64,000 bases of DNA from Isoetes taiwanensis (taxonomy: Eukaryota; Streptophyta; Lycopodiopsida; Isoetales; Isoetaceae): contig JAJEKV010000017.1 in the NCBI GenBank assembly GCA_021234155.1, forward strand, positions 6,328,992 through 6,392,991. Reading direction: 5' to 3'. Shown here in pieces: positions 28,591 through 52,806 of the stretch. The translations under genes and the position numbers were made by a program. How positions within the stretch are numbered: the first letter of the stretch is position 1; each line of letters opens with the position of its first letter. The notes beneath the pieces were generated by a model, which was not told the origin of the DNA, did not search any database, and was given only the letters and a program-made list of their open reading frames with translations.

Positions 28591-28639
28591 AAGAGAAATG
28601 TTTGTTGCGGCCTTGGCCGCCGCGATAAATTTCTTGTAT
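28591..28639 (+). repeat. Dispersed 48-bp imperfect palindrome, copy 2
   Basis: Same unit and orientation as at 2902 and 63809: AAGAGAAATGTTTG, GC-rich centre CCTTGGCCGCCGCG, then ATAAATTTCTTGTA. Flanks differ from the other copies. Confidence 0.75.
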
Positions 28640-29575: not shown

Positions 29576-29607
29576 CATTAGGGCGGATTTGGGGTCTCAA
29601 AATGGCC
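29576..29607 (+). repeat. Left terminal inverted repeat of the large element
   Basis: 32 bp, complementary to 43213-43244 except at one position (C against G in the middle). Part of the motif is repeated internally at about 31590 and 31635. Confidence 0.85.
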
Positions 29608-30165
29608 TCCTATCAGCCATTCCACGTCATATTTCCGCTCTTTTTTTCCCATGCCACCTAGGATACCAAACTCTCATAATTACAGATTTGCTTGGAATAT
29701 TCTTAGGAATAAGGGGGATTGCACATTCATGGCCATATGTATTTAATTACGTTGGTTGTCGACGGATCGATGCAACACGTGGCGCTTCTAAAATGCCACT
29801 TGCATTATAGCATACCAGGCAACTCATGGCCCGGTGTCTCTTGGGTTGTCGATACCAAGCGTGCGGCCACCGCCTTCTACATTTCAAAATTTGAATGTGT
29901 AGGTTGAAGCTTTGTATCGGATCGGACTTTCATTTTATTTGCAGCTAGCTTTAACCGATCTTCACTTCATCCCTATCTGGGCTTCCGCCCCCTACAATTG
30001 AAATTTGAATTTGCTTAATGTATAAAAGCATGGATTGTAGGAGAATGGACTTTTCGATTTCCATATACACGCGTTGCAAATTTCAAAAACGAAGTTAAAT
30101 GCGGACGTCGGCTCACACGAAGCCGAATTGTGTTGGGGCATAAAAATACCACACCTTCATTTCGG
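29585..30165 (+). repeat. Subterminal direct repeat, copy 1
   Basis: About 580 bp starting at 'ggatttggggtct' recurs at 31635-32245 in the same orientation, sharing blocks such as 'catttcaaaatttgaatgtg' and 'ggagaatggacttttcga'. Copy 2 lacks the outermost 'cattaggg'. The 5' end of the element therefore carries a duplicated or nested terminus. Confidence 0.8.
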
Positions 30166-30386
30166 CGCCGTCGATCTACAGATATGGAAGTTGCTTGTTG
30201 TCAAATTAAACTTAAACACAAGTGAGGGTGCGGCACTTACGTGGTTTTCTCGAGGAGGGTTTGGAGTGTTTTTTTTTTAAATCCCAATTATCGACATAGT
30301 GTGACGTAGCATCTTGGTATTAAATAGTATGTTAAATTCGAATTATATGGGTGTTCATTTTCGGGTTAAACTCAAATCATATAGGT

Positions 30387-30494
30387 TTAGGAATAAGGTT
30401 AAAAAAGGAAGATATTGGATATTTAGGAATAAGGTTAAAAAAGGAAGATATTGGATATTTAGGAATAAGGTTAAAAAGGAAGATATTGGATATG
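30387..30494 (+). repeat. Three tandem copies of a 36-bp unit
   Basis: Unit starts 'ttaggaataaggtt' and ends 'gatattggatat', beginning at 30387, 30423 and 30459. Copy 3 is one base shorter in the A-run. Confidence 0.9.
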
Positions 30495-30679
30495 GCTCAA
30501 ATTTTGAGATATGCACATAATGGCATGTCTTGATGGTTGATAGGATTTGGAATCTGAATCATTCCTACGAATTTCACATCTAATCCAGCCTATATCTATT
30601 CCAGCCTAGATTGGCCCATTCTCCCCAATCTCGCCCAATCTTGGCTAGATCCTCCACCCAATTTCTCTAGTCCATCGCC

Positions 30680-31018
30680 ATGAAGAGATCAGCTCACGGA
30701 AGAAGGGAGGTGTCCTCCAAGAGGCCTATTACGGCTGGAAGAGGTGTTCCCTCCACAGTTCCCTCCGCGCCCACGGTTCTTGCTCTGAATGCCTCGATTC
30801 TCGATTCCTCGATTCCTTTGACGAGGAATCGGAGAATGAGGAATCAGAGGAAATTTCGGGAGCGAGGAGTTCATCACGAGTGTTCTTGAAATTTGGATAG
30901 GAGATTCTTGAGAGAATGAGTGGTCTACGAAGGAGAAGAAGTCGAAGATGATGAAGAAGATGAAGAAGTTGAAGACGAATCCGGTGACTTCGAGGAGCTC
31001 ATGGCGTTAGTTCATGGT
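30680..31018 (+). pseudogene. Basic-then-acidic small protein of the large element, frame-broken
   Basis: It starts MKRSAHGRREVSSKRP (30680). A one-base shift later gives DEESENEESEEISGARSSS and a further acidic run EGEEVEDDEEDEEVEDES near 30930-30990, ending at a possible splice donor (gtacatgc) near 31017. The basic head and strongly acidic tail suggest a nuclear, possibly histone- or nucleic-acid-interacting protein, but I recognise no family. At least two frame changes and a stop interrupt it. Confidence 0.35.
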
Positions 31019-31413
31019 ACATGCATGTTTTCTTTCTTTTCTTAAGCATTCAACTAGCGGTTATTTCTTATTTTTTTTTTTTGCGGATGGTGAAGCGGAT
31101 GAATGAAATTTGTTAGGGCAGAGAGCACCTCTTATTTTTTTTCCTTGTTCTTAGCCTCGGCTTGCCTCCGACTTCTTACCATATATTTGCAAGCCTCAGG
31201 GTTTTTGTTGTGAATAGTTGAAGCCTCAGGGCATTTAAATTTACAAAATGATGTTCGATGTAAAGCCATACGACCATAAAAATTTTGAATGTAAAAGTTT
31301 TTGTTTCTAATTCTATTTGAATACCTAACTTGTTTTTTTCTTGTACATGTGTTACCACTCTTAAGTACATAAGTCATTATCCCTTTTCAAAGAGCATATT
31401 ATTTTTCAAGAAG

Positions 31414-31478
31414 GATCACACCAAGCGAATAGTACATATGCAACAAAATGGAACACACTAAATTAGCATCGTGTGATC
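31414..31478. repeat. Element palindrome P1
   Basis: GATCACACCAAGCGAA pairs with GCATCGTGTGATC over a ~36-nt loop. The loop ('atgcaacaaaa...acac') resembles that of P10 at 40320. Confidence 0.75.
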
Positions 31479-31634
31479 CACTTTCTTAATTGTTGTCAAA
31501 TTAAAATTAAACACAAGTCCCTCATCAATAGTCTCCCATTTGCATATAAAATATCTATCATTCCAAGTTATATTTTGTTTTATGAACTAAAATGGCCTCC
31601 TATCAGCCATTCCACGTCATATTTCCGCTCCTTG

Positions 31635-32245
31635 GGATTTGGGGTCTCAAAATGGCCTCCTATCCGCCATTCCCGTCATATTTCCGCTCTTTTTCCCGTC
31701 GAGATTTGCTTGGAATATTCTCCGGGAATAAGGGGATCGCACATTTATGGGCCATATGTATTTAATTACGTTGGTTGTCGGACAGATTGGCGCAACACGT
31801 GGCGCTTCTAAAAAGCCACTTGCATTATAGCATACCGGCAACTCATGACGGTGTCTCTTGGTTTGTCAGATACCAAGCATGCGCATCACCGATTCTTGTC
31901 TTGCCCTATTTTCATTTAGAGTCCATGGCCATACAAGCTTCCCGCCTTCTACATTTCAAAATTTGAATGTGTAGGTTGAAGCTTTGTATCGAACTTTTCG
32001 TTTATTTGCGATTGCGCCTTAAAAGTTCATAATCGGGATCTTTACTTCATCCCAATGGGCTTCCGCCCCCTACAATTCGAATTTTGAATTTGCTTTTGTA
32101 TAAAAGCATGGATTGTAGGAGAATGGACTTTTCGATTTCCATATGCATGTTGCAAATTTCAAAAACGAGGTTAATACGGACGTTCGCTCAAACGGGCGAA
32201 TTGTCTTTGGGGCATACAAATTGTACACCTTCATTTAGCCGTGCG
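31635..32245 (+). repeat. Subterminal direct repeat, copy 2
   Basis: Second copy of 29585-30165, about 600 bp, with substitutions and small indels, immediately upstream of the main plus-strand gene. It may hold its promoter, since 'tataaaagcatggattg' occurs in both copies (about 32098 here). Confidence 0.8.
32096..32103 (+). promoter_or_regulatory. Candidate TATA box of the plus-strand element gene
   Basis: 'tgtataaaagc' lies about 165 bp before the first plausible ATG (32264) and is preserved in the upstream duplicate near 30020. This is positional inference only. Confidence 0.25.
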
Positions 32246-32263
32246 ATCCCACGCGGTATGGAA

Positions 32264-34761
32264 GCTCCAAATGATGTGTGGATAAGGATCCAACTGACTC
32301 ACGAATATACTCCGGTCTTCAATCGCAAAAAAGGAGGTCTAAAAAATAAGAACTTAGACCTCGACATGTTGCGTCTTTGCGAGGATCAAAAAGTGTCGAC
32401 ATCCGGGCGGATGGCGGTTTATATCCATTGGATCCGTTGAGTGGCAAAAAACCGTCATTCGGGGCGTTTCAAGTTTAGTCCCGATTTTGTGGTGGCGGTA
32501 ACTCTGGCCTCTTGGGATATTGTGAGAGATTGAGAGAGGATGAAGACATTCGAATCGAATCTGAGTTCCTTGAGATGAGCTGCTTCCGATTGTCACAAGA
32601 GAATTATAACTTAAACCAGCAGACTCTTTTTTCTCTCACTTCATTACTCCTTCGTGATGAAGGAAAGGAATGACGGCTTGGGGAGGGAAACTTCTTTGAG
32701 ATCTGAAGTGGACAAGTCCAAATTGGTGATAGGGCAGCTGCAAGAAAAAGATCCAAGAGCTCGAAAAGAGCAAACTTTGGGCTTCAATGTAGGTTAAAGA
32801 ATTTGAAGAAAACACCCCTTGGCTGCGAGAAAGGAAGAAGCACTATCGGTAGATAGAGGCTGAAGTTTGGATCAGGTGCATTCAGACGCGAGGTCCCGCG
32901 GCCACAAGGTCCGTTTACAACACTAGCAAAGGCCAATTAAGATCCGGGGAAACCGGAAGCAATCTTGGTTACGTAGTGAAGAACCTAGCGACAAACAGGG
33001 AGATAGTGGACATGATTTGTCACCCTACAACTCTTCTCTCAAGAAGATGGTATTGGAAATGGTACTAGGAGAGATCTACAAGAAGTTAGAAGCGGCGGAT
33101 GTCTGGATTTGTTTGTGATGATGTAGGCATCGGTGGGCTTGGTTACCGTTCTCTATTCAAGCCATTCCACGAAGCGTTGAAAAGAATGGGCACAAAAAAG
33201 TATTAAGCTCCCGTCCACAAATTGTCGAGAATACAAGGGTTACTTTCGGACAAAGATGGTGTATGCCATATTAGGAGAGATGCACCACGTTGAATGTCTT
33301 TGGTCACGCCATAGCCATAAAAGATAAGAATGGCAAGGATTGTTGTGATATAGTTGGAATGAATGAAGCGCAATAATCTTTGGGTTGACACGGTTACTCT
33401 CTTACAATTCCTTGTCAAATATTATGACTTAACATTTGCGAGAAACTAATGGTGAGATTGAAGTTTGCATAAAATTGGATGAAATGGAACGACCAAGTTT
33501 GAGAAGTATGAGAGGGTATCCGTTGTCATCATGAATAGAGCAATTGAGAATGCAATTGCACATGCTAAATCAAAGAGCAACAAGAATAATAAAAAGATGA
33601 TGTAGAGGTGGCCGAGGAGGAGAAGAAGCGTCTTAGAAAAATGGTTCTCATGTCAATCAAGATGACACACGGTGGTTAGGTCTCTTTAAAGTTGAGAAAA
33701 GAAACCCACGAGGTATTATTGAAATGGGTGTTCAATCAAACCGACATCCCGAGTCTAATATCTAGATTCGAGGGAGGAAAAATTACAAGTAGATCACTAT
33801 GGATCTTACAAAGTAATTTTTCACTTGGCGTCTGATTTAAAAGCGAGAAAGCAATGTACAACATAAGTGGAGAAGGACAAGGAACATGCAAAAGTTATGC
33901 ATCTTTGCAATCATGCAAAGGAAGTCAAGTAATCTTGGGGAAGACTGTTTCAACCTTGTCCCTTAACCAAGCAAATGCTCCTAATAGAGGGAGAAGAAGA
34001 TCCCAAGTTCCATGGCATTTTCCCCATACCATTAGAGAGGGTTCATATCGCACTTTGCACGCGGCTTTGTGAGAATCATCGACAAGATGATATTTTTGAG
34101 CTGCAGATTCGTGTGGAACATTTCAGACAAGAAGAGAAGAGAGGAAGGAATTCGTAGAGTTGAACATGTTCTATCGAGCGAGGTTTGCATGGTGGCAATG
34201 TAAGATTAGAGCTTCGATGAGAAGCGGGCGGGGGAAGAACAAGTGTGCCTCGTAAAGGTGTCAATTGGAGGGGTGAAAGCTCGACGCTTCATAAAGAATC
34301 ATAGAGAGGCTCTGAACGGAAACCAGATGGGAGAAAAGGTCTATGAATTTGGAAAATTGCTGGTTGATGCGGAGCAGGACCGCACAGATGGCGTTCGTTC
34401 GGCATTGAGGAAAAAAAAAGCATGGGATGCATTGTCTGAATTGTTCCCATACATTCAGAGAATGGACCTCACAAGAGAAGATGCAGAAATGTTCGTGCAA
34501 GCGAATAACAAATTTATTAAAGCTTTCATAGACGCATGGGGAGAGAGTGAAGTCACGCACTACTTGCACATCTTTTGGGCTCATGCACCTTGGTTTTTTA
34601 GGAAGTATGGAAGCCTAGCAGTGTGGAGTGCACAAGGCATGGAGAAGTCGCATAAACAAGCTAAAATAGCCTTTCATCGTAACACTCAAAGAGGGGGTGG
34701 AAATGTGGGAACCAACCCTCTAAGACAAAATGTGAGTGGTTTTATAGAAGGCGATGGCTAA
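32264..34761 (+). pseudogene. Main plus-strand protein of the large element, degenerate
   Basis: The coding trace begins MEAPNDVWIRIQLTHEYTPV (32264) and continues in broken frames to a stop at 34759. Readable parts include a coiled-coil segment (about 32530-32770), 'EIEVCIKLDE' (about 33450), 'FHGIFPIPLERVHIALCTRL' (about 34010) and the best-kept part, 34243-34761. That last part (172 codons) has HYLHIFWAHAPWFFRKYGSL followed by QGMEKSHKQAK. The pattern 'H-I-x-x-A-H-x-P...GSL...QGxEKxHK' resembles C-terminal parts of large uncharacterised transposon proteins of other eukaryotes. I infer an element-encoded mobility or replication protein, without a named family. Many stops and frameshifts make it non-functional as written. 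Confidence 0.5.
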
Positions 34762-34938
34762 ATCACGACAAGAAGGTCGCTTTAAGGAGCAACCCACAAG
34801 TCGTAAACACCATTGGCATAATCTTTCAAGAGAAGCGGAAAGTTGCTTGGCAAAATTCTAGGGCCCCACTAGCATCGCAGCAGTGGAGATCTAAGAGACA
34901 AAGAATCGGTAAAAGTATACTTGTAATGTGTAGCATGT

Positions 34939-35004
34939 TCACCTGACGGCCTTGAAGTACTTGCCTCCAACCTTGTTTACTGGCTGTAGCCGGCGTCGTG
35001 TGAT
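34939..35004. repeat. Element palindrome P2
   Basis: 'tcacctgacggcc' pairs imperfectly with 'ggcgtcgtgtga'. It lies between the plus-strand gene and P3. Confidence 0.6.
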
Positions 35005-35014
35005 CTTATTTGTA

Positions 35015-35076
35015 TCATACGGCGCGAACAGTGGAGTTCGCTATTGCTTGCATTTATGTGGCTTCGCGTCGTGTGA
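35015..35076. repeat. Element palindrome P3
   Basis: TCATACGGCGCGAA pairs with TTCGCGTCGTGTGA, 12 of 14 positions, over a ~34-nt loop. It lies about 80 bp downstream of the stop of minus-strand gene A. Confidence 0.8.
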
Positions 35077-35158
35077 AGCTTTACAAGATAATAATAAAAA
35101 AGGTTACTTTTGATTAAAGTTGTGAAAGATGTTACATTGAAAAACAAAATACAGCGAC

Positions 35159-35635
35159 TCATTGTTGCTCGGTCGCGAGCTCTTCTTCATTATCTTCATC
35201 ATCATCATCAGCTCCGTCCTCGTCTTCGTCTTCATCTCTTCTCCTCAAGCGAGCAATCACCCTATCCAAACGTTCCTCCAATCTGTCCACCATCTCTTTG
35301 TACATGTCCCGCTCCTGTCCCAATAGCACAACATGTTCTTACGCACTTTGAATTAGCAACCTCGTTTGTCGTCATAACCACCTCGGTCGCGGTTGTTGGG
35401 GCATGTCATCTGTCGACCTTCTATTCAACCGCTGATTTCCTCTCTCTCACGGCTCTGAAGCATGAGAAGGTTGAATTCATTCTCTTCTTCTTTTTTGCTG
35501 AATTGTAGCGGGCGTTTTCCTTTAGAAGATCATCTTGCTCCTTCAACCTCTTCATTAGAACACCCAACACTATGTCGAAGGGAGTTCTATCCTCTTGCGT
35601 TTTCCCTTATCGGCGGTTGAGGATGTGGAGGCCAT
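35159..35635 (-). pseudogene. Element cargo gene A: coiled-coil protein with acidic tail
   Basis: It starts at ATG 35633-35635 with MASTSSTADKGKRKR. A one-base shift leads to TPFDIVLGVLMKRLKEQDDL, and the end reads RDMYKEMVDRLEERLDRVIA then an aspartate/glutamate-rich tail finishing EELATEQQ at stop 35159-35161. Heptad-like L/M/V spacing predicts a coiled coil. It is related to genes B, C and D (same MAS-Ser start, same '(M/V)MKR(F/L)KE' core). Two or more frame changes interrupt it. Function unknown. Confidence 0.5.
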
Positions 35636-35869
35636 AGATGACAAATGGGAGGGGCGTTAAGATTATAGAAGTGAGGAGCAAAGACTCTAACCGGCGGAAG
35701 AAGCACAATGCAAGGACCTCAATTTATACATATTAGCGCTTGAACATATTAAACACGATTGGATTTACTGGCCGCATACGCGTGTCGGCCGGATTCAATG
35801 GGTTGTCGCTAGAGCACATTAATGGTCTTGTCATTTGGAACACATTAATAACTATTCTAACTACATTGT

Positions 35870-35932
35870 ATCACACCACGCTGAAATCGCACACGAGCAT
35901 TAAAACCCTATGAAGGGTTTTCGCCGTGTGAT
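35870..35932. repeat. Element palindrome P4
   Basis: ATCACACCACGCTGAA pairs with TTTTCGCCGTGTGAT. A second, inner hairpin ('aaaaccct...agggtttt') lies in the loop. Located between genes A and B. Confidence 0.8.
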
Positions 35933-36076
35933 CTGTCTTGTCATTCTCTCTACCACGGATATTGAAAATAAAAATAGGAAGCGTAATATTCGCACATTTG
36001 TCAAAAACTTTTCCCATTGAGAAATAAAATAATTACAAACATTAAAAAAGCGGGCCCTCTAGGAGGAGCCCGATGC

Positions 36077-36490
36077 CTATGATCGACGGGCAAGCTCTTC
36101 CCGGAGGCGGTGATAATTTTTTCTGCTCCTCCAACATCATTGTTCGCCCGCAACCACGTTCTCATATTTAGCAACCTTATCTTCCCGCTCATCGAGTTGA
36201 GCTCGGGCAGCCTCTCCGCCGATTGCGGCCCTAAGCCTCTCTTGGAGGCTATATCTAAATGGCCCAGCGCAATTAGCGGTCTAAGGCAGCCCGTGATTGT
36301 CGGCGCACTAAAATCACCTCCCTATAGAAGGCTGACCTTGTCCTCTGCAACCAACTTGGCGGCGTCTTCATCATTCTTTTTCTTTTTAGAAGGCGGATCC
36401 GTTCTCTCGCTTCACCACGAATGTTCTTAATTTCCTTGACCGGAACTTGAGACAAGATCTCGCGGGGATGGAGGCGGAGCTGGAGGCCAT
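36077..36490 (-). pseudogene. Element cargo gene B: charged, helix-rich protein
   Basis: It starts at ATG 36488-36490 with MASSSASIPARS. Shifted frames give KKKKNDEDAAKLVAEDK and LDEREDKVAKYENVVAGEQ, and a stop follows ELARRS at 36077-36079. The protein is rich in K, E and A with probable coiled-coil spacing. Its start resembles A and C, but the MKR-KE core is less clear, so membership of the family is tentative. Confidence 0.4.
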
Positions 36491-36955
36491 TGAAAGTGAT
36501 GGGAGAACAGGAGAGATGGCTGAGGGCGGATGTGGTAGAACAGGAGATGGCGGATAGGAGAAGACAAAGGCCTCCGACGTTTTATATAGAAAGTAGAGAT
36601 ACGTTGGAATCTACGGTTATGAGTCTGGAAATAAAGTTGTGTAATAATCCTACGAGGCGAAATTATAGCATGCAATTAGGCAGCGGTAGCCTATGTTCGC
36701 ATCATGGGATTCGTCATATCCTAGCCGTACTGTATGCAGGCCGTACAAAAGACAGTGTTATTGTGGCAGCGCATGCCACGTCCTTGGCATGACGTCATCC
36801 ACATGCCACGTATGTGAATAGGCGTTGTCATCCAAATGCAAATTAGCATTTACACGCAAGTTATCACATAATCTAGCTAGATATTTGTGTTACATATACT
36901 TTTCCATTAATAAATTAGGAATTTATACATACAACGAGGGTATGCGTTGTGGAGA

Positions 36956-37020
36956 TCATACGACGCGAAATCCATTGATTGCTACGTAATTGCAAGCATG
37001 GCATTTGGCGTCGGTAATGA
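36956..37020. repeat. Element palindrome P5
   Basis: TCATACGACGCGAA against TTGGCGTCGGTAATGA. The loop ('ccattgattgctac...ttgcaagca') is shared with P7, as expected from duplication together with gene C/D. Confidence 0.75.
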
Positions 37021-37089
37021 TTTTTAATAAAACAAAACAAGAGAACGGATAGAAGCAAGAAGCGAGCAAACTTTTCTTTGAAACAAAAA

Positions 37090-37465
37090 AAATATATATA
37101 CAATGGCTAGGGATCTTCATGATCACAGATTTGGCCGTAAAAGCTGCGTTCTCATCCTCATGGCTTCGAAGCTTCTTCTCCATATCTTCTAGCGCTGCGA
37201 AATATTGTGTCGCGATTAAAACGCCGCCGACCCTACGGCTATTGGCCTCTCGGTACCTGGTTAATGTTGCCGCTTGAGCTCAAGGTCTCGCTCATCGCTG
37301 ACCCCCTCGTGAATTCTAACTTGTCCCCGCCTCCATCTTTCGGCGGCGAGGCAATTTGTTTTCGTCGTGAACCTCCTTGAATCTCTTCATCACCACAGCA
37401 AAGGGTGATGTCGCGGCGACTCTGAAGGCGCGGTAAACGCTCTTGGAGGAGGATGAAGATGCCAT
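37090..37465 (-). pseudogene. Element cargo gene C: coiled-coil protein, paralogue of D
   Basis: It starts at ATG 37463-37465 with MASSSSSKSVYRAFRVA and continues SPFAVVMKRFKEVHDENKL before a frame change. Later trace reads like D, with a cognate of D's ALEDMEKKL helix near 37185. The region 36900-37480 aligns along its length with 37750-38400, so C and D arose by tandem duplication of gene plus 3' palindrome. Function unknown. Confidence 0.5.
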
Positions 37466-37591
37466 CGGAGGAGAAGGTGGAAGGCGGAAGGCGGAGAAGA
37501 TGAGCGGGAAGGCGGGGCGGAAGAGGATCGGAGGTCGAAGGCAAGATAGAAGGTCTTCTATTTATAACGGGGATTTTCGTAGTAGCTTGAG

Positions 37592-37657
37592 TCACACGCG
37601 GCCGAAGGATGCCGTGGGTCGGGGAAAATGGACCAAGTTACTTCTCGCGTCGTGTGA
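37592..37657. repeat. Element palindrome P6
   Basis: TCACACGCGGCCGAA pairs with TTCTCGCGTCGTGTGA. It lies upstream of gene C and downstream of P7/gene D. Confidence 0.8.
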
Positions 37658-37819
37658 GGAAAAGGACCGTTACTTCTTCTAACGCGTCTTTTCTTCGAGA
37701 AAGCTCGTGTGATAATTTTTATTGATAATTTCGGTGATACAATCTATACATAAGTAATTTTCTTGATACATAACTAAAGATAGAACTTCTCATTGAAGCA
37801 AAATAGAGCGGCATGGAGA

Positions 37820-37884
37820 TCACCACGCCTTGAAATCCATTGATTGCTACCTAATTGCAAGCAAGGCATTTCGGCGTCGTGTGA
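37820..37884. repeat. Element palindrome P7
   Basis: TCACCACGCCTTGAAAT pairs with ATTTCGGCGTCGTGTGA. Loop shared with P5. It lies 3' of minus-strand gene D. Confidence 0.85.
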
Positions 37885-37989
37885 TATTTTAATAAAAGCA
37901 GAACATACATTGGAACAAGAGGATAGATAGAAGCAAAAATAGAAAAACTTTTCTTTGAAGCAAAAAATAGATAGATACAACGGCTAGGG

Positions 37990-38395
37990 ATCTTCATGAT
38001 CCTCTAGCTGATTTTCATGTCTGCGGTGCCCGTAAAAGGTGGCGTTCTCATCCTCCCGCATTTCGGAGCTTCTTCTCCATATCTTCTAAGGCCTGCGAAA
38101 TCATGTGGCGGTTTCAAGCGCCCGCCCCCTGCGGCTCGTAAGCCTCTTGGTACATGGCGAATGTTTCCCGCGAGCTCAACATCTGCGCTCGTCGCGGCTG
38201 GCGCTCCCTCATGAAGGCTAATCACATCGGCCGCCTCATTGTTCGGCGGCGCAGGCGGTTGTTTTCATCATGGATCTCCTTGAATCTCTTCATCACCCCT
38301 TTGCAAGGGGTGATGTCCACTGGCGGCTTTCATTTGCTGCGGAGTGCTATCTTGGCGTGGTAAACTTGCTAGAGGAAGATGATGATGCCCGCCGG
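37990..38395 (-). pseudogene. Element cargo gene D: coiled-coil protein, paralogue of C
   Basis: The start region reads ASSSSSSKFTTPR but the ATG seen in C is replaced, so the start is lost as written. It continues VMKRFKEIHDENNRLRRR, then MLSSRETFAMYQEAYEPQ and ISQALEDMEKKLRNAGG, with frame changes between. Residue spacing in KRFKEIHDENNRL and ALEDMEKKL suggests coiled coils. Same family as A and C. Confidence 0.5.
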
Positions 38396-38497
38396 GCGAG
38401 AAGGTGGAAGGCGGAAGCCGGAAGTAGAAGATGAGCGTAAGGCGGAAGGCGCGTCGGGAGGTCGGCGTGGACATCGGTCTTCTATTTATAACATGAG

Positions 38498-38527
38498 TCA
38501 CCACGAGTTGCTTTCGGCGTCGTGTGA
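38498..38527. repeat. Element palindrome P8 (short form)
   Basis: TCACCACGAG and TTTCGGCGTCGTGTGA with almost no loop; apparently a loop-deleted member. It lies just upstream of gene D. Confidence 0.65.
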
Positions 38528-38582
38528 GGAATAAATAAATTAATTGTTTTTTTCAATAATATTTCATTTCTTGAGATAAATA

Positions 38583-38643
38583 TCACACCACGCGAAAACC
38601 TAGATATATGAGAAAAAGCGGTGATGTATTTGGCGTGATGTGA
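38583..38643. repeat. Element palindrome P9
   Basis: TCACACCACGCGAAAA against TTTGGCGTGATGTGA. It lies between gene D and the next minus-strand gene, about 100 bp beyond that gene's stop. Confidence 0.75.
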
Positions 38644-38743
38644 ATAAATACAAATAAAATAATTTTTATTAGGAATTTGGAAGGACAATCGTACATAAAT
38701 AATTTTACCGATACAAGTTGGAAAACATATAACTTCCAATTTC

Positions 38744-40162
38744 TCAAGCTTCGTCGTCAATTTCATGCTCTTTCAATCCCTCACAAGACCGATCCAACAA
38801 GGCAATGACTTCCATGTTATCGACCCGACTTCCAACCTTGGGTGAGTCAAAGCCCGGCTGACTAAAAAATTTAACATATTGCTTTCGCCCGTAGACCCGG
38901 CTTGGTCGTCAAAATATTGTAGCACAACATCCCCCCGAATTGCTATCACCCTTTCAGTGTTTGATGCCAATTGGGAATGGTTCCCGAACATGCATAATGC
39001 ACGGATGTAATAGACAAACTCTGCACCTTTTGGACTGAAAGTTCTGCTGAAGACGATTATCTCCCCATTAACGAATCTTGAGATATATCGTAACAATGTA
39101 GAGTCCTTCAATCTTTCCTGTCCCCCGCGTGCATGTCGGCAAGAAAAATCATCTACTTCCCACAAATAAGAACCCTCAAGCTTATCTTCTTCACATTTAT
39201 CCTCATCTGAGGCTTATCTTGTGATTGGTGAAAGGGCACGCCAAACACGTAGATCCCTGTTGGCGACTTTGCACGGAGACATTTGGAATTCTTCTTCCGT
39301 TGGTAGATTAAGCCTCATCTTGAGCAAATCGAGACTCCAGCCTCTCATAGGCTTCTTTTAAGCTTTATAGCATTGCGGTATAATTAGACACTTCAAACAT
39401 CTCTTTGTCCAAATCCTCTTCAAAATCTAGGCCTAAGTTTACCCATTCGGCCAAGGTACTGATAAGCTCGTCTTCCCTAGCACACATTCGTAACAAAGAC
39501 GGGTTCCTCAGTATATCACTTAGCAATAGGTATTCTTTGCCTTCCACTAAAATTGGCGTTATGTCAGACAACTTCTTTTCATCCTCATCCCCATCCTCAT
39601 CACCTTGAATCATCTCCCTCCTCCGGGTTCACCCAAGGCCGGTCGTCGAAGCTAAAACTCCTACATTCTTGCTCTTCTTCTTGTAGATCTATCTCCATTT
39701 CTCGTCATAGTCGGCATCATCACACATAACTGACCCCCTTGGCTTAAAGATTTCATTGTTTCCGGTGTATCTTCGGTTTGGCCCGGCGAGAATGCAATAA
39801 CTAGCAAATGCAAGCGGCAAAGAGAAATAAGATACCTTCTTAAGCACAAGGACGCAGCCGGGGAGGAGCCCGCTATGCGGCATTCTTGAAAAACATCTTC
39901 CCTGTTTGCAAATGGGAAGCCGCCTCCTCTAGAGCTGGTTTTGGAATCCACGAGCCGGGGACATCGCAAAGGGCGTCTTGGCCCGAGACCAAGCGGTCGG
40001 GGTGAAAGCTAAGGCAACCTCGCGATAGCATCCAAGCTCATTCTTGTTTGCCATGATGTCCAACTCCTTGCAATAGAACGGATAAATCGCGATCGGCGCT
40101 TAACTTCCCTCGTTGTCATGAGGGGGATGCATACCATTCGGGAACTTCACATAACAATCCAT
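38744..40162 (-). pseudogene. Element cargo gene E: large unrecognised protein, frame-broken
   Basis: One coding trace of about 470 residues runs from ATG 40160-40162 (MDCYVKFPNGMHPPHDNEG) to stop 38744-38746 (LKEHEIDDEA). Long open pieces are 39365-39613 (acidic start, then PILVEGKEYLLLSDILRNPS and DELISTLAEWVNLGLDFEED) and 38773-39165 (ISRFVNGEIIVFSRTFSPKG, FVYYIRALCMFGNHSQLA). Pieces are linked by apparent one-base shifts. Both helical and beta-rich stretches occur. I do not recognise a domain. Confidence 0.45.
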
Positions 40163-40290
40163 GGCGAAGCAAACAGCGAAAACAAGAAGATGTTTAGGAA
40201 GCGGTAAAGTATCTGTCACTTTTGAACTCAAGTAGCCGTTGTCGATTATGAAAGGGGACCAGACCGTTGTGGGGAGATTTGTCCGTACAT

Positions 40291-40317
40291 TTTAGGGTTA
40301 GGGTTAGGGTTAGGGTT
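40291..40317 (+). repeat. Short interstitial telomere-like tract
   Basis: TTTAGGG then three further TTAGGG-phase units ('tagggttagggttaggg'). It abuts palindrome P10. Most land plants use TTTAGGG, so six-base phasing is notable, but the tract is short. Confidence 0.7.
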
Positions 40318-40319
40318 GG

Positions 40320-40386
40320 ATCACACGCGGCGAAGACTACTATGTGCAACAAAAAAGCACAATGCTTGCTTGCTGCGTGGTGTGAT
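40320..40386. repeat. Element palindrome P10
   Basis: ATCACACGCGGCGAAG pairs with CTGCGTGGTGTGAT. Its loop resembles that of P1 at 31414 although the two lie 9 kb apart. It sits about 120 bp beyond the stop of the histone-like gene. Confidence 0.85.
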
Positions 40387-40506
40387 CCTCAATATAACAT
40401 TAAAAAAAAATACAAAGTGCGGCGCTAAAGAAATGGACTAAGAGATTAAGCTTATAAAGCCATTACATTAAGAAATATTATACATATGAAAAAACACAAA
40501 GGCACT

Positions 40507-41369
40507 TCACGGCCTTTTTTTAAAGGGGTCTTTCTTCTTGTTGTATTCAGCCATAAAATTTTGACCATAGTTCGGGGGATCCCTTATCGTAAGGCGAGAC
40601 GCATGTCCTTGGCATGACAGCCATCACCCACCCGCTTGGCATGTATTGCTGCAAGCTGCGAGTCCTCGAAACAGACCGACACCAACCGCTTCGAAGCCAT
40701 TTGAAGAGCATTTAAGGCGGTTGCTTGAACTCGTGGCGGTATGATGTATCGCACCACACTCTTGAGAATCTCTCTCACGAGCGGCAAATGGGAGACGCGG
40801 AATGACCATCTCGGTGCTCTTCGATACTTCTTAATCTCGCATGGCTTTTAATGCCAGGGCTTCGTCTTCCGGCTTCCTCGGCCACTACCCTCACCCACCC
40901 CAAATTTGGAGCCTGTTGCTCGGCCGACTCTTAGGCCGCCTCCTCCCCGACATTTGCGGTTGTTCCTCGGCCGACTCTTCGGCCGATCTCCTCCCATTCC
41001 GGGTCGCCTTCCCCTTTCGGGGCGTTGGGCCTCCTCCTTTGATTTGAAGGTCCTGGCACCTCCACGGGAGGGGAGAGGAGAGGAAGAGCAAGAAAGAGGC
41101 GGCTGCCCAATAATTAATCCGGCGTCATATTCTACGCCCCGGTCTCTCACATTTTCATCCTCGTCTCCGAACCGAGTGCACCTCCCTACTTACTCCGAGT
41201 TGCTTCTCCCCCCCGTCATGCGGATTTATTTTTAGGGTCTTCACGTTAGGCATGGTCGGAGGAGGAGAATCTCTATCGAGAGACTTGAGTCGGATGAAGA
41301 AGGCGGACTAATGTAATCACCTGGTCTTACACCACGGATGGATCCTTGCGGTTGCTTAGTTCTTGCCAT
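40507..41369 (-). pseudogene. Divergent histone H3-like gene carried by the large element
   Basis: The ATG at 41367-41369 opens MARTKQPQGSIRGVRPGDY: its first six residues equal canonical H3. About 170 codons of R/K/G/S/P-rich trace follow. The H3 fold then reads EIKKYRR, STEMVIPRLPF (alpha-N; canonical REIRKYQKSTELLIRKLPF), LVREI, RVQATALNALQMASKRLVSV (alpha-2), CFEDSQLAAIHAKRV (canonical LFEDTNLCAIHAKRV) and AKDMRLAL (canonical PKDIQLARR). An extra C-terminal tail RDPPNYGQNF...DPFKKRP ends at stop 40507-40509. K4 is kept; the ARKS motifs around K9 and K27 are not visible. H3 pairs with H4 in nucleosomes. At least three one-base frame changes (two flanking the alpha-N, one after MRLAL) interrupt the sequence as given. 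Canonical H3 is about 136 residues, so this is roughly double. The fold assignment is firm; activity is not. Confidence 0.85.
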
Positions 41370-41529
41370 GGCTTCTCGAGGATGGCGCTTTATACTCTTA
41401 ACACTGACAAAAATAGACAACTGGCAAAAGAGATAAATAGTAAAAAGCGAAGTTAAAGTAAAAGATGATGGTAACGTTTTAAATAATTTATGCGGAACCC
41501 TAAAAAAATATCGGACAAAATACGGAACC

Positions 41530-42240
41530 CTAAAAAACATCAGGACAAAACACAAATAAAAAACCGAGATTCAAAGCGCTAGGCGATAGACAATTTCTTG
41601 TTGATGTGAACTCACTAAACTTTACATTTCCCTCTTGCCCGTAACCAACCCTAATGCCATCAATAAAATAATGGAAGTCGTCGCCAATCTCCTCTGTCTC
41701 CATTAGCACTCTTAGCTCGATAATGGCCATTCGCTTTCCATGGTGGTCACGTATAAATGACTTCCTCCCCTCTCCATACTCGAATATCCACCGACGGGAG
41801 TGTGCATTTATGGTCCTCAAACGGCTCCCAAAAAGTTGTGCAGACCTCTCTTTTTCTGTTTCCTTCGTTCTAGTTGACAATTAACGATAAATATTGTTTT
41901 GGAAGAAAGTATCGAACTTAAAGGAGGACTTAACTCACGCGGACCTCTGTTAGTTGACCGGATGATTTCGTGGAATCGAACATCCAGTCGGAACCAAAAA
42001 TAAGCCATCCACAAAATCGGCAGGGGGAGAAAGCACGTATATGTCTTGAGACTTTTGAACTTCTGCGCCATCTGGAATATGTTAGCAAATACCTCAAAGC
42101 GGTGTGAAGATTTTGAAACTCATCCTCACGCCTCGGTTTTCGGACATTCCCGCTTGCACCTCGTCGACCATGCATTTCTTCATTGCAATTACATTGTTCT
42201 CATTAGTCCGTGGCTTACAAAGTTCACTTAAAGGGGCAAT
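41530..42240 (-). pseudogene. Element cargo gene F: unrecognised protein
   Basis: The trace runs from about 42240 (NENNVIAMKKCMVDEVQAGM, SENRGVRMSFKIFTPL) through a shifted frame (ANIFQMAQKFKSLKTY) to an open 116-codon stretch at 41530-41880 that reads RWIFEYGEGRKSFIRDHHGK, RMAIIELRVLMETEE and GDDFHYFIDGIRVGYG. The last part looks like a beta-rich domain. No family recognised. It is upstream of and co-oriented with the H3-like gene. Confidence 0.4.
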
Positions 42241-42488
42241 TCAATAGGCCTCAAGCTCGGTTTCGACCTTTACGTTATAATCATGTCGGTAAAACCGGAT
42301 GCCTATACCCCGAGGTCACGGCATCCATACCTTGGAAAAGGACAATTCCGATGTCTATGTGATACACCGACAAGTACACTACTAATACTTTCGGTAGGAA
42401 TGACATCCACGACGTCGATAAACATAAACCCGCACAATAAATTTGTTTGTAAACACGTGTCAACGAAAAGAAATGAAAAGATAAGGAG

Positions 42489-42555
42489 ATCACACGATTT
42501 TGAAACTATCTCACGCCAGTTAAGTAGGCGGCGGCTAAGCTTCGCGTCGTGTGAT
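42489..42555. repeat. Element palindrome P11
   Basis: ATCACACGATTTTGAA against GCTTCGCGTCGTGTGAT, between genes F and G. Confidence 0.8.
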
Positions 42556-43091
42556 CAATTAAGGTGGTTACCATTTTGCGGGCAATTTTGGGAAGCCGTT
42601 TTTTGGTGGAGATTAGCTCTTTGACCATATCGGAAGGGGTATATGCATGTCGTATTGTTATACTTTCCACTTTTCCTACCGCTAGAATTCAACTTGAACT
42701 CTTTTATCCTACCTATCCAATGTGTCCAAGACGTCGATTGCCTTTGTCGCTTAACTCTATGCTCGCCCCTCGTTGATGGCGGCATACTCACCCACGAACC
42801 TATTGAGACAAAACCTCCCACTTCTTGACCTTGGGAGTTACGTAAATGGGGCAAGAACACAAAAATTACAGGAGACATGGATTGCGGATGAGGAGTGAAG
42901 GCGGAGAGGATGCACGAGAGCGCCATAGTGATAGTACGAAGTTTGGCGTAAAATTTGACAAAGGGAGTTGGTGGTGGCGAGCGGTGGCGGTCAAAGTCAC
43001 CATTATTTTGGGCGGCGGCGACTCCCGAAAAATACGGGCCATTAAAATGGTTGCAATAAAAGCGCAGGCATCCCCTATGAAAATACGCCAT
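42555..43091 (-). CDS. Element cargo gene G: unrecognised ORF
   Basis: A 178-codon open frame close to the right end of the element. A more internal Met gives MALSCILSAFTPHPQSMSPV. The latter half is basic (GEHRVKRQRQSTSWTHW, RIKEFKLNSSGRKSGKYN). No domain recognised. The frame may be fortuitous, since its 5' part overlaps sequence next to the terminal repeat. Confidence 0.3.
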   Translation of the reverse strand: MAYFHRGCLRFYCNHFNGPYFSGVAAAQNNGDFDRHRSPPPTPFVKFYAKLRTITMALSCILSAFTPHPQSMSPVIFVFLPHLRNSQGQEVGGFVSIGSWVSMPPSTRGEHRVKRQRQSTSWTHWIGRIKEFKLNSSGRKSGKYNNTTCIYPFRYGQRANLHQKTASQNCPQNGNHLN

Positions 43092-43212
43092 GTGGATGCC
43101 AAGTAAGCCTGCTCATCCTTCTACCTGCCAAGTAATACTGACTTTCGTAAAAAAGGCGCAAACCTGATTGGTCCTGGCGAATCTGACGTGGAAATCTTTA
43201 ACCCAAGATAAG

Positions 43213-43244
43213 GGCCATTTTCAGACCCCAAATCCGCCCTAATG
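43213..43244 (-). repeat. Right terminal inverted repeat of the large element
   Basis: Reverse complement of 29576-29607 with one mismatch, ending ...AATCCGCCCTAATG. The outside sequence is tgtcacaagcc. Confidence 0.85.
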
Positions 43245-43572
43245 TGTCACAAGCCATGGGTACTTGGAAGTTCTATGGAGCCTTCTCCAATGGTTAAATA
43301 TCTTTGTGATACTATGATAAGTACAATGTGTACTTACTCAAGGGAGTTTATGCGGGCATATCATTAGACGAGTGTAGCTTATCTAGATAGGGGCTAGATG
43401 TGCTGGTGAGGTGAAATTTGTTGCTGGTATGGGACGTTGGCGGATGTAACCAATAGTCTGGCAGCTTAGGTTCTTATGTTGCTTGTAGCTTCTCCCTTAC
43501 ACTGGATCCACCGGCGCAGGGGTTCTAGACGAAGTACTGTCTAGATATAGTGGGGTGCATATGTGTGGCAGA

Positions 43573-43881
43573 TGTTATGATATGTGTGGAAGATTCCATA
43601 TGTGTGTTCTTGCAGTCAATCAGGCATTGCTTTATAGGCATAGTCTATCATGTTACTAACACGCGGAGTTATGTGCAAGCTATGTGACAGCTGGCAAAGC
43701 CATGTGCAAGTTGTTTGACAGCTGGCAAAGCTACATGTTGTGTATAGTTATCTAGTAGATGTGTTGTTGTTATCTTGTTATTTGTATACGTGGCTTTCAT
43801 GTATATAGCCTCGTAAGAGGCAGTGCTTGTTTTGTGTACTTTGATAGTTTATGTGGATATGAATCGATTTTGCTTCGTAAC
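43573..43881 (+). mobile_element. Candidate solo LTR
   Basis: Begins TGTTATGATATG and ends CGTAACA (TGTTA/TAACA inverted ends). It contains a doubled 'gacagctggcaaagc' box like a U3 enhancer and 'tgtatatagcctc' like a TATA box. No 5-bp target duplication is visible, so the limits are uncertain. Confidence 0.35.
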
Positions 43882-43995
43882 AACCAGTATGCACTTGATA
43901 TACTATATTTACTAGTCATAGATAATTAAGTTGGTCAGGTGTAAGATCTCCATTCTAATTTTAATGCCAAAGACATCAAATTGGTATCGGCATCA

Positions 43996-44045
43996 TAGGC
44001 TCGCCAAAAAAAGCACATTATAGGCTTGCCAAAAAAAGCACATTA
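43996..44045. repeat. Two tandem copies of a 26-bp unit
   Basis: 'taggctcgccaaaaaaagca' and 'taggcttgccaaaaaaagca', each followed by 'catta'. Confidence 0.85.
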
Positions 44046-44463
44046 ATGATTACGGACTAACAATGCAAGTGAAAAGTCTAACTTCAAAATCCTTGACCGT
44101 CTAGTTCTAAAACTGCCTTAAAAATATATAATCCATGCAATTTCCAACCCTGGATAGATATAGATATGATTATAATCATTTTGTGATATTTCCAAAGCCA
44201 CATCTTCATGAAGACTTATATATTTTCAACTCTAGTAAATGTAAATTATCTTCATAGCCATAACAGCAGCATGCAGATTAGCTCTAAAACAGTACCATTT
44301 CATGCGAGCATTGATCAAGGAATATTTATAAAATATATATATACACATATTCCCTATGTTAAATCTTTCTAGTACGATCCAACTCTTGTATGTACAAATA
44401 TAAGGATGATAGCATACCAGAATACCCAATTCCAAGTTCTGGAAAAAAATTGCAAATAGCCAT

Positions 44464-47400
44464 TTACCACCTCATGGAGACTGTTTGACGTCCTTTAGGT
44501 GTATACCTTGATCGATGTGCAAATCCCCAAAGCTGAGCAGCCATATCACTTAGCATTGCTTTTTTTTAGTTATAACAAAGTAGGGTTACTAGACACTTAC
44601 CTCGACATTTTTAACAATAAACTCTTCCTGATGAGCTAAGCAACTATTGCCGAACGTGTTGCATGCACCACTGCTTCCACTCAACCTGGGGAAGAATGCA
44701 ATAAATAAGCAATGTTAATGCTAAAAGGAACAAAATTTGCATCATGTTCTAAATAACCATATTACTAACTCGATACATTTCAAAATGCTATATTTTTGCT
44801 TGTGGTTTGATTCACCGACTTGCAAAAACTTACCAGCCTCTTGACATATGAACAAGTTTTTCCTTAACAGCCTAACTCAGATATGTGCAGCATGCTGTCA
44901 TCTCATTGTAAAGTACATTGGTAAAGTACATTTAGTATCGTTACTTTACTTTGCAGTATGGTTTCTACGATATTGCTTTGTTGGAAACATAAATCTCTCT
45001 ACTAAGGCAATTTGGGTTCTCTTGTTTCAGGACCTTTTATTCTTCAAGCAGAAACCCTATCTTCTTGATAACTTCTTGTTAGTCAATATCTTCTGATTTT
45101 CTTCCATATTTATAAAAACTACAAGAAGCCTTCAGCTTTTCTGTCAGCCTTTCAACATGTTACAAAAGGTAAGCAGGAAATAGCCTACACGTTATCAAGT
45201 TCTCTGCCAGGTAGATCTTTATTAACAATGTGTACTTCAAGATATTCTTTTGGGGCAAACATGTTAGAACATAAGCCAAAGACATTTATTCTATGAAATA
45301 TGAGGCAGGTTTTATTGTCTCCTTGTGAGGCTATATTCCTACCAGAACCCATTAAATTTGAGGACCAGAATATGTATTCTACCTTCATCAAACGACCCAG
45401 AGAAGAGATCTGAACAGAGATATCCTCTAGAGTGACAGATGAATATCACTTCTCGTTAGTGATTATAAGAGCCACAAGTGGAGTCTTCTTTCCACCCCTT
45501 GAGCAATTAATCTCAAACTCTAGAGGCATCTTCATAAAACTGTCTAGAAGAGTAAAAATGGGAGCAAAGGGAAAACATAAGTGGATTGTTCAAAGATAAG
45601 GCACGGCAAATTTCACTTAATACAATCTTTTTTTTTCTTCCCTTCCTGTATCACGGAATTTGTGTCCTTTGCTACAGGACACAAATTATATATAGTTGTT
45701 AAATGAAGTAATTTCTCCATCTTCCAAAAGGTAAGAAGGAAACAGTCTCTGGCGGAGGTATGTCGACAAAACGGCATGTCTGTCCCAGCTTGTCTTGAAC
45801 GTTTCGGGAAGGCCAGGTTTGAACAAAAAGGTGCCCCTAATGCTTAATGCTTTCAAAATAAAGCATCGATATTCTGCATCTTACCTCCTTCCCATGGACA
45901 CAGTTGGTTTCTTTTCAAAATTTCCAACCCCATATAAGCAGTTTAGACGGGAACATTTTTTCTGCGGCTGGTTTTGATCCAGACACTTGCAGAACAAGAC
46001 TGTTAAATTCATGTTTCCCATTTATACAGGAATCCGCACAACTGCATTAGTCGGACACACACACAGTGTGGCCCCAACTGTGTGAAAAGTTACCTAATTT
46101 GAACAATGCATGGAAACAAAATGGTGCTCCATGAAATCGTGAGCTGATTGTTCCTCATAATATGATCAAAAATCGATATAAAGTTTTACTTTTTGAAAAT
46201 GAAATAAGACACACAAACACTCACAAATCGCTTTCAAGGTATAAAGCAAAGTGTCCACCACCTCCAATTGCCAAAGCATCATTGGTGCAGAGAAAAAAAT
46301 AGTGATTCAAGCCTGTAAAGTAATTCCAAAACCTATTAAAAAAAGGTAGTAATACGCCTATAGTCAAATGTTTGCTAGGTGCATACCAGTTGAGCGGAAA
46401 AGTTCAGGTTTTCCAGAAACATCTGTATAAACAAATGTCTGGCTTGATCCCTGCCATGAAAAGATTCTCAACTGCTTCAGACGACTGTCATGTTTGTGGA
46501 AGTAAAAATGTATTTACCTGGTACTTCCTTTTCGAAGAAGGCTTCAAGGGAGCTGTCAATAATGCCCCAAATATTGCACCGTCTGCATCCCCAGTTACCT
46601 AAAGAAGGATATGTTAAGAATTTAATGCATATAAAAAATATTGAAGCTGACACATAGCCCAGGACGATTTGTTTCATCTTTCCAGTGACCCTTCTATCAA
46701 CCACATGGCATGTCATGCACCAGAAAAATGGAAAACTATGTGGCCAGACAATGTTGTGTGATCCGGGGGGGCAGATAAAGAAAATATTGTACAAATTTAA
46801 GTATGTATATGCTGAATGGATACCTTACCAGTAAAAAAGGTTCAGACAATGTGGCACTTTTCCTGTACAGTGTCAATAATGATATGCCATCCTTCAGCGT
46901 GCTGCAATCAAATACAGGCATAGGTAATCTGCAAATGCACATGAATAAATACCAGAAGACACAATTGAAAGTGCACCTGTACAGTAGCACCCACTGGCAG
47001 CCTTGAACAAGAGTCGGAAGAGATGGATAGATAAAATCTCGCAAGCCTTCTGTGAGAAGAATAGACTCCTCCGTCATTGACGGAAGCTTTAGCCTTGGAG
47101 AGGACTGAGCATTGTTCGGTGCATTTACATTAATGTCTAATTGAGGTTTTCTCACTCCATTACCCACTCTGGTTCTTTTAGCATCCAATGCATCTTCTGG
47201 AAGCTTCGAGTAACAATCAGAAGGATTCTCATGTGAATTCTCAGGAATACAATCTGGGCTGTCGGCACAAGGCACTCCTTTGTCTGGATGGCGGAGAAAT
47301 GAATAAAGGAAGGCTGTCAATGATGATGTATCAGGCCCTTGAAACTCTTCATTGGAGTCCACATTTGAGACTGTCCTTTTATGTCTCCTTTCATTTTCTT

Positions 47401-49546: not shown

Positions 49547-50790
49547 TTAGGGAATATGTCTAGCACTACAGTCATGGTGATTTTCTCTTACGGTCCAGAA
49601 ATAAATAAATATACGGTTGCCATCGCATATCATTCTGATGCTCTGCGAACCTATACAATCCATTGTATAAATTCGAAAAATCCCCTTCTCAATAATTATT
49701 AGCACTAGGAAAGGCCCTTTGTCTAACCCGAACCACTTGCGATGGCCAAGTGATCGGTCGGAGGACATGGGGATGTCATTGGCCCATATCTCTTCTCGGA
49801 CATCCTATATCACAGAAGAGTACATACATGTTAACGCACACCAATAACACATGTAAGAAGTATGCCACTTAGAAGAGTGACTCATTCATCATCATCGGAA
49901 CATAACCATAGGTAATGCATAATGCTCGAAAACAAGGGTTTCTACCCCGGACTCAGATTCAAGCTCCAATAACAACAGATAGAACCATGACAATGGCGTT
50001 GGCAGCCATAGAATATTGGCTAGGGTAGTCCACTCCATCTGCCCCTCCTATGCATAGTTTACAAATGGGGTAGAACATGCAGAGCACTGATTGTAGCCTT
50101 CCGAAGTCGTGATTTTAAGGATTCATCCTGTAGAGACCAGTCCAAGTTGCATCTCCCTGGTCCGCTGAGGCAGGAACAAATAAGTCTCATCCAAGAGCAT
50201 AGTGGAATTGTGGGCGAGCTAGAAGACCAAGATCACCCATCCTTACCCGATTTAAGCTCCCAGATTCACTGAATTAGGGATTGCCCTATCTAGAAAGGGG
50301 TAAGACTCATACAAGGCCCACACGCAGTGACAGATTATAAGCCCAACTCATTATAAGGACTCTAGTAGTCACGCATCCATCCATAACTTCATAACTGGGA
50401 ATTAGCATGAGATTTTATCATCCCTCTAATCATCCAACGACCAGTTTCTAGCTAAGAAATCAATCTATCTAGCTTTCATACAAGTTTCATGGTCTCAGTT
50501 TGTGTCCACCTCTCTAGTATTCAAGAGTTGCTCCTCCTTTCCACAAACTTCCTAGATCAATTTGGGAAAGATTGGGGTAGTCTGCCCTAAGGGGTAATAC
50601 CCCAGATAGCAGTCTTTCCCTTGCTCAATCGAGTTTGGCCAAGTGTCATCCTCTTGCAATTAGTGATTTAGCTAACATAACTAACTTCCCTTTGTTAAAT
50701 ATCAACATGAATAATAGTATATAGCTATTAATTATTCATGGTGATATATCATGTATTTGTACGAGTCACATATAAAGTAATGAAACGTCA
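49547..50790 (-). mobile_element. Candidate 3' LTR region of a Ty3/gypsy chromovirus
   Basis: Read on the minus strand, the purine tract CCAAAAGGGGAAGAAGG (50806-50790) is followed at once by TGACGTTTCATTAC, the usual order polypurine tract then LTR start. The integrase/chromodomain trace lies on the proper side (51.1-52.5 kb). The far end is not defined; 49547 (TGTCTAGC) is a guess. Confidence 0.45.
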
Positions 50791-50806
50791 CCTTCTTCCC
50801 CTTTTG
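50791..50806 (-). other. Polypurine tract of the chromovirus
   Basis: A 16-base purine run on the minus strand directly before the TG of the presumed LTR. Confidence 0.5.
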
Positions 50807-51109
50807 GATAACATTAAGTTATAGGACAATTCTGATCTTGCGTAAAGTTATAATAAACAATGTATTAAGGAATAGATAATGTAATTCATTATTAGATAAA
50901 ATTAATAACATTGATCAAACATGACCAATTGTTTTTTTATTGAAGTCATTCACGCAAGAGATATGAAATTTATAACAATTTCAAACATAATATGACCACA
51001 CTTGTCCTCAATAGATCACATATGATTCTGCAGGAAAAAGCCATCAGGTTACTGACCTGCAAATGAAAAGTGATTCCTATATATCATGCCTCTGATTGAC
51101 TATTCGCCT

Positions 51110-52480: not shown

Positions 52481-52806
52481 TAACACCTAATTTATTCTTA
52501 TAATGCAGAAGATTACGTTCTTGTAATGCTTAAAGGTTTCTTGTTTAGTATATGTTCTGATTTTTTTAATAAGCTATGCCACACCTCCCGAAACTCATGA
52601 TCATGGGAAATAATTTGCTCAATTGTTTTACCAAATTTATTGGTGAGGGTTGAAATGGCATTACAATGAGTTATGGTGACCAAATGGATGTTGAAAATAT
52701 GTCGCAAAATAACAGGGGGTTCCAGGGGGATTTGATATCGATGTAAAAATAAGAATTCCTGAAACCATAGACCATATATCGCTAAAAAAATTTAATAAGT
52801 TGTTAT
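52481..52806. other. Short spacer, possibly more chromovirus relic
   Basis: AT-rich. Minus-strand short ORFs have no clear RT motif. Confidence 0.3.

Follow-up and report, generated by a model that had tools for sequence, protein, structure and literature searches.

The window analyzed here is a stretch of 64,000 nucleotides from a contig of Isoetes taiwanensis (JAJEKV010000017.1), and its central feature is a DNA transposon that carries a divergent histone H3 gene. The initial annotation had described a 13.7-kb element bounded by terminal inverted repeats (TIRs), which the comparison of copies bore out: the element is 13,669 bp long, and its TIRs are identical at 31 of 32 bases. The annotated parts are:

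29576..43244, no strand assigned: the TIR element, 13,669 bp, delimited by its TIRs and by copy comparisons
29576..29607, plus strand: left TIR, tip CATTAGGGCGGATTTGGGGT, placed by copy starts and tip identity
34210..34761, plus strand: C-terminal piece of a probable DDE transposase, with a weak RAG1 likeness below the Pfam cut-off
38740..40170 (approximate, from the alignment with L041), minus strand: relic of a partner gene, ORF2, homologous to ORF2 of an LTR retrotransposon
40292..40317, plus strand: telomere-like (TTAGGG)4 tract between the H3 gene and ORF2, conserved in L041
40507..41369, minus strand: H3-like gene, frameshifted in the window copy; its open form of 291 aa lies at L039:109-981, minus strand
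40587..40857, minus strand: the segment of the H3-like gene that encodes the histone fold, spread over more than one reading frame in the window copy
43213..43244, minus strand: right TIR, its boundary lying at query positions 149-161 in 34 of 39 other copies

Elsewhere in the window, units of about 1.1 kb are repeated in tandem over positions ~3500-22500, where at least 17 matches of one related unit from C985:18.271 Mb were found among the matches listed. A zf-RVT relic of a LINE-like reverse transcriptase gene lies at 23399-24184.

Copies of the element were sought in the Isoetes taiwanensis genome (1,658,258,908 bases in 1110 contigs); the published assembly, for which Nanopore reads were processed with miniasm, racon and pilon, is described as 1658.30 Mb in 204 scaffolds and 909 unscaffolded contigs (PMC8566536). 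The left end, chosen regardless of H3 (query 29450-30350), was used to score the best 40 of 1893 candidates. All 39 other copies start within 29561-29577; the start falls within 29574-29577 in 32 copies and at 29576 itself in 19. The first 20 bases of the tip are identical in six other copies. The 26-base TIR core has three matches in the window at up to three mismatches, against 0.00 expected. No target-site duplication was seen in any of seven copies, and the flanks of true pairs matched no better than those of mismatched pairs. A second TIR-like end at 31632-31657, about 2.05 kb inside the left end, is accompanied by duplicated subterminal DNA at 32080-32241 and may be the left end of another element form.

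The initial annotation had placed the H3 gene between shared palindromes, and this stands in part. A 10-mer, CGTCGTGTGA, occurs six times in the window (34994-42545) against 0.09 expected, every time inside the element, and inverted pairs are clear in L041, where some of its nine occurrences are paired about 40-45 bp apart. The 10-mer may serve as a binding site for the transposase or form hairpins at gene ends.

The superfamily was approached through the probable transposase piece at 34210-34761. Its match to the Pfam RAG1 profile reaches 14.8 bits against a cut-off of 25 and aligns about 40 residues of the C-terminal piece only, a segment that presumably carries a catalytic glutamate in RAG1. 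RAG1/Transib transposons generate a 5-bp target-site duplication, and none of that length was present in the seven copies; the 8-bp duplication of hAT elements was likewise absent from all seven. No hAT transposase domain was matched in the element ORFs scanned, which cover part of the element. The piece may also resemble a KDZ/Zisupton transposase; the profile scan of the window ORFs returned no match to the KDZ family.

The H3-like gene itself proved to be located exactly to the base, with its ATG at 41369 and its stop at 40507 on the minus strand, and both the MARTKQ start and FEDSQLAAIHAKRV, as initially annotated, are present in the window copy. The proposed Pfam check was decisive in a sister copy, L039, where the gene is a single 291-aa ORF running from MARTKQTAR to KKKDPPEKRP: the whole H3 fold matches the Histone profile at E 5.2e-31 (107.9 bits, cut-off 26.4) and solved H3 chains at E 7.5e-31, so that chance resemblance to H3 is excluded. 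The L039 protein begins with MARTKQTARIHPGGV, followed by a linker of about 150 residues and the H3 fold, beyond which the C-terminus is extended by about 20 residues. A further copy, L040, has a frame break near codon 13 and is open thereafter. Relative to host H3, 59 of 91 fold residues are kept, and the transposon H3 branch is very long in the tree. Four extra residues are found near loop 1 in L039 and L040 and are absent from the retrotransposon H3 described below; a lengthened loop 1 is a feature of centromeric H3 (CENH3). A single pair, with dN 0.011 and dS 0.016, was too little to gauge selection on the transposon gene.

To establish whether the gene travels with the element, the right end together with H3 (query 40500-43400) was compared with the best 40 of 1684 candidates; since this query includes H3, copies without the gene are under-represented. 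In 34 of the 39 other scored copies, the sequence runs from the TIR tip straight into H3, and those in C1035, C1045 and C1055 do so in two pieces. The remaining five comprise a copy whose match begins 33 bases inward of the tip, a copy with H3 but no matched tip, and three copies that have the tip and end before H3. For one of these three, C907:39056746, the H3-gene search does list an H3 match, at a distance of about 2.7 kb from the tip. Beyond the tip, no other copy matches for more than 9 bases. The H3 gene alone (query 40500-41420, best 40 of 535 candidates) is matched over all 921 bases in 36 of the 39 others, at 85-90% identity among the copies; two matches stop short, at 890-894, and another is split in two.

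The left-end search gave a complementary picture. Seven of its 39 other copies have H3 at 10-15 kb among the matches listed, and five of these also have the right tip. Those in C1107, C920, C930, C1035 and C1045 measure 13.4-14.1 kb with both tips and the H3 stretch, and in C1033 and C1055 the left end and the H3 match are 10.8 and 14.3 kb apart. In C952 this distance is 25 kb, and the 10.4-kb copy in C919 has both tips and no H3 match among the matches listed. The other 30 left ends have no partner among the matches listed, which cover the best-scoring copies only. With the long query 28000-47000 (best 6 of 4603 candidates), H3 was matched only in C1056, whose segment 40670-42040 is inverted; matches in the other five end at 35.2-37.6 kb. 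Two of these six copies start at 29574-29576, and three (C1049, C1094 and C907) start at ~31635, at the inner TIR-like end, so shorter forms of the element exist.

The initial annotation had suggested that the H3 gene is cargo of the element and had asked whether it always lies inside the TIRs. The tip-to-H3 copies identify it as element cargo, although some copies lack it; it lies inside the element in most copies scored with the H3-containing query, whereas "always" is too strong, given the five of six copies without matched H3 for query 28000-47000. A host pseudogene merely surrounded by the element was rejected, as the scored copies start at the element ends and most run from the tip into H3. 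The window H3 was also considered as part of an LTR retrotransposon and rejected, as the DNA of the two does not match around H3 and the element ends differ.

The frameshifts of the window copy were examined against L039. CAG/CTG sites make up 11.4% of L039 bases in the H3 gene, yet they account for 33 of the 100 substitutions and 12 of the 33 deleted bases, about three times the expected rate; with the roles reversed, such sites make up 3.3% of window bases and account for 2 of 100 substitutions and 0 of 15 deleted bases. A similar asymmetry extends over 40410-38519 (33 of 83 substitutions against 7.5% expected; reversed, 5 of 83 against 3.3%). Over 38464-33717 the excess has no direction, because the two comparisons are alike (45 of 281 against 4.6%; reversed, 37 of 281 against 4.0%). 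The commonest changes affect the middle base, which is deleted (C-G) or replaced (CCG or CGG), and deamination is therefore a poor fit, since it would give TAG/TTG or CAA/CTA. Early Nanopore base calling misreads methylated CHG sites, and the CAG/CTG changes fit such misreads better. The H3 gene may thus be less decayed than it looks, some of the damage stemming from the assembly, and CHG methylation of the window copy is probable. Reading frames of methylated repeats in this assembly need careful reading, as CAG/CTG differences are concentrated in the compared copies.

The histone tail was analyzed in 19 copies, i.e., the window copy and the 18 best-scoring others of the H3-gene search (L039, L040 and L054-L069). 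Codons 7-11 read GCAAGGATCCATCC in all 19 at the nucleotide level, with ATC as the lysine-9 codon, and the frame is kept to this codon in 17; the first 21 codons are in frame in seven, giving MARTKQTARIHPGGVRPGDYI in full. In an ungapped alignment by eye with host H3, K4 is kept, K9 is replaced by I and K14 by V. The canonical tail ARTKQTARKS is accordingly not found in the transposon, which keeps ARTKQTAR and continues with I-H-P. Lysine-to-methionine or lysine-to-isoleucine "oncohistone" tails can trap methyltransferases.

When the genome was searched with the Histone profile, 8705 candidates emerged, the best 150 of which were scored. The best 15 look like canonical H3, and the eight that were read are all 136-aa H3. 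Among the other 135 loci ten were read, and all ten share one kind of H3 fold; in nine it terminates an ORF of 411-459 residues (start codons chosen by us), L018 continuing past the fold, and L015 is truncated. The L014 product matches the Histone profile at 148.8 bits (cut-off 26.4). Five loci, E1-E5, were read over 40 kb each. E1, E3, E4 and E5 are each bounded by direct LTRs about 1.6 kb long that share 89.6-95.4% of their bases, and E2 has a single LTR within the stretch read. The LTR starts with TGTGAC in E1, E3 and E5 and is followed in E3, E4 and E5 by the primer site TGGTATCAGAGC, presumably of the methionine-tRNA type; E1 has a perfect 5-bp target duplication, judged by eye. Pfam domains comprise capsid, protease and partial integrase in E3, reverse transcriptase (RT) and RNase H in E4, and integrase and a chromodomain in E5 (E 3.4e-8, 33.7 bits, cut-off 25.1). 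With the domains of E3, E4 and E5 pooled, the H3-carrying LTR family is a chromovirus-type Ty3/gypsy family. Its genes follow the order 5' LTR, H3 ORF, ORF2 and gag-pol, and E1 and E3 have an additional ORF3 of 149-165 residues ahead of gag, to which an ORF in L014/E2 is related. In the window, an old relic of an LTR retrotransposon of this type (pol, chromodomain region and LTR) lies on the minus strand at 49636-52504, and its longer matches to the H3-carrying family are ~65-68% identical.

In the four copies compared, 80-83 of the 93 residues of the retrotransposon H3 fold are those of host H3. Together with the chromodomain, this favors a role in targeting, in which H3 variants within nucleosomes would mark element chromatin and, with the chromodomain, steer integration or recruit element proteins instead of counteracting silencing. 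The DNA transposon fits such a role poorly, since its H3 fold is far more divergent, at 59 of 91 residues, and no chromodomain was matched in the pieces scanned, which cover part of the element. Overall, we consider targeting rather unlikely.

Selection was assessed over 36 pairs of nine retrotransposon ORFs, with L015 left out and L018 cut after the fold. dN/dS is 0.00-0.16 in the H3 fold (dS being finite in 16 of 36 pairs) and 0.10-0.23 in the N-terminal part (14 of 36 pairs, several with dS above 1); as the nine ORFs come from the top of the Histone-profile ranking, the values for the fold are biased downwards, and those for the N-terminal part are less affected. These low values, which extend beyond the histone fold, disfavor passive gene capture for the retrotransposon, that is, an H3 picked up by chance and amplified without use. 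Such capture has a precedent in fungal hAT elements (PMC6710886), and many copies in Isoetes are broken and some lack H3. Against it, the fold and the MARTKQTAR start of the transposon gene persist at great divergence, and H3 plus ORF2 is common to two element classes. We regard passive capture as very improbable.

An AlphaFold model of the N-terminal part of the retrotransposon H3 ORF consists of a folded domain followed by a long helix, and a search with the modeled domain found no confident match. This architecture and the position of the H3 and ORF2 genes ahead of gag would suit a nucleocapsid-like function, in which the element's own particle uses the H3 domain and ORF2 to pack its DNA or cDNA or to shield it. 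A gag with a capsid domain is already present, however, and a full H3 fold would exceed what DNA packaging needs, so that we judge this function improbable.

In both element classes, ORF2 follows H3 on the same strand. The homology of the ORF2 relic was detected by tblastn at E 2.8e-6 in the window and 2.8e-9 in L041, each against one small subject, and between the families by BLASTP (E 1e-8) and hhalign (E 1.1e-6, probability 91%). The alignment scores 41.2 bits, whereas none of 500 shuffles exceeds 23.9 and the reversed sequence reaches 16.5, and its identity of about 25% indicates an old link. As for the H3 genes, the tree is compatible both with a single origin of the two lineages and with separate ones. 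The shared order and homology suggest that H3 plus ORF2 is a module common to the DNA transposon and the LTR element. If real, it would be an unusual case of two linked genes exchanged by different classes of mobile DNA.

Together, these results make us nearly certain of the anatomy: a DNA transposon carrying a divergent H3 and ORF2 as a standard gene set of its longer copies, with an LTR counterpart. To the best explanation as a whole, which joins this anatomy to an anti-silencing role, we assign a probability of about 0.5. Judging from the sequences, we tentatively propose, at less than even odds, that element H3 proteins reduce the H3K9 methylation and linked CHG methylation that silence the element. 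They would become part of host chromatin or imitate it, and the reduction would come about either through nucleosomes that lack a markable K9 or through a K9 methyltransferase being tied up. A chromatin protein that helps the element against silencing is the most economical reading; the loss of K9 while the first eight tail residues are kept favors it, and the signs of CHG methylation on the window copy are partly in its favor. More doubtful is the specific proposal that the I9 transposon H3 is a natural dominant inhibitor of H3K9 methyltransferases and that H3 plus ORF2 is a counter-silencing module passed between DNA transposon and LTR retrotransposon.

Several observations count against this explanation. 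The probable CHG methylation of the window copy would mean that it is silenced despite its H3 gene, which speaks against the mechanism. The window copy and many others are frameshifted; C919 and five of the six copies for query 28000-47000 are without matched H3; and in the retrotransposon H3 the tail is internal and the position of lysine 9 is ambiguous to align. If element H3 genes do act in chromatin, some transposons would fight silencing with their own histone. An arms race over H3K9 methylation, if true, would be testable with a single peptide or protein.

The H3K9 pathway is a known target of counter-silencing. The geminivirus protein TrAP is reported to inhibit the K9 methyltransferase SUVH4/KYP (PMC4606454) and so offers a mobile or viral factor that acts against H3K9me2 silencing in plants; the comparison would be a functional one only, since TrAP is not a histone. 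In fungi, DNA transposons encoding TET/JBP dioxygenases are described (PMC12730594), which resemble the Isoetes element in that a transposon encodes a protein of chromatin or DNA methylation; theirs is a DNA-demethylation enzyme, and that of Isoetes a histone. Plant chromoviruses, as characterized in PMC3605345, have the same LTRs, gag, protease, RT, RNase H, integrase and chromodomain as the Isoetes family. The latter differs in adding ORFs between the 5' LTR and gag (three in E1-E3), the first of which ends in a full H3 fold.

In the open-licence PMC literature, outside of which most subscription papers and preprints fall, we found no plant element or LTR retrotransposon with a histone among the entries listed. 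The word "histone" is absent from the main text of the I. taiwanensis genome paper (PMC8566536), and "histone" and "chromovirus" from that of the I. sinensis genome paper. The closest parallel comes from fungi, in which capture of H3 by transposons has been described (PMC3538342). In Dothideomycete fungi, hAT transposons with 20-bp TIRs and 8-bp target-site duplications captured histone H3, and the copies in P. fijiensis are reported as inactivated by RIP (PMC6710886). The likeness to Isoetes lies in a multicopy TIR DNA transposon with an H3-derived gene. By contrast, the Isoetes element has no hAT domain in the ORFs scanned and no target-site duplication in seven copies, and its H3 has a long linker, a replaced lysine 9, a partner gene and a counterpart in a second element class. 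What is new relative to fungal capture is thus the selection, the partner gene and the occurrence in two element classes.
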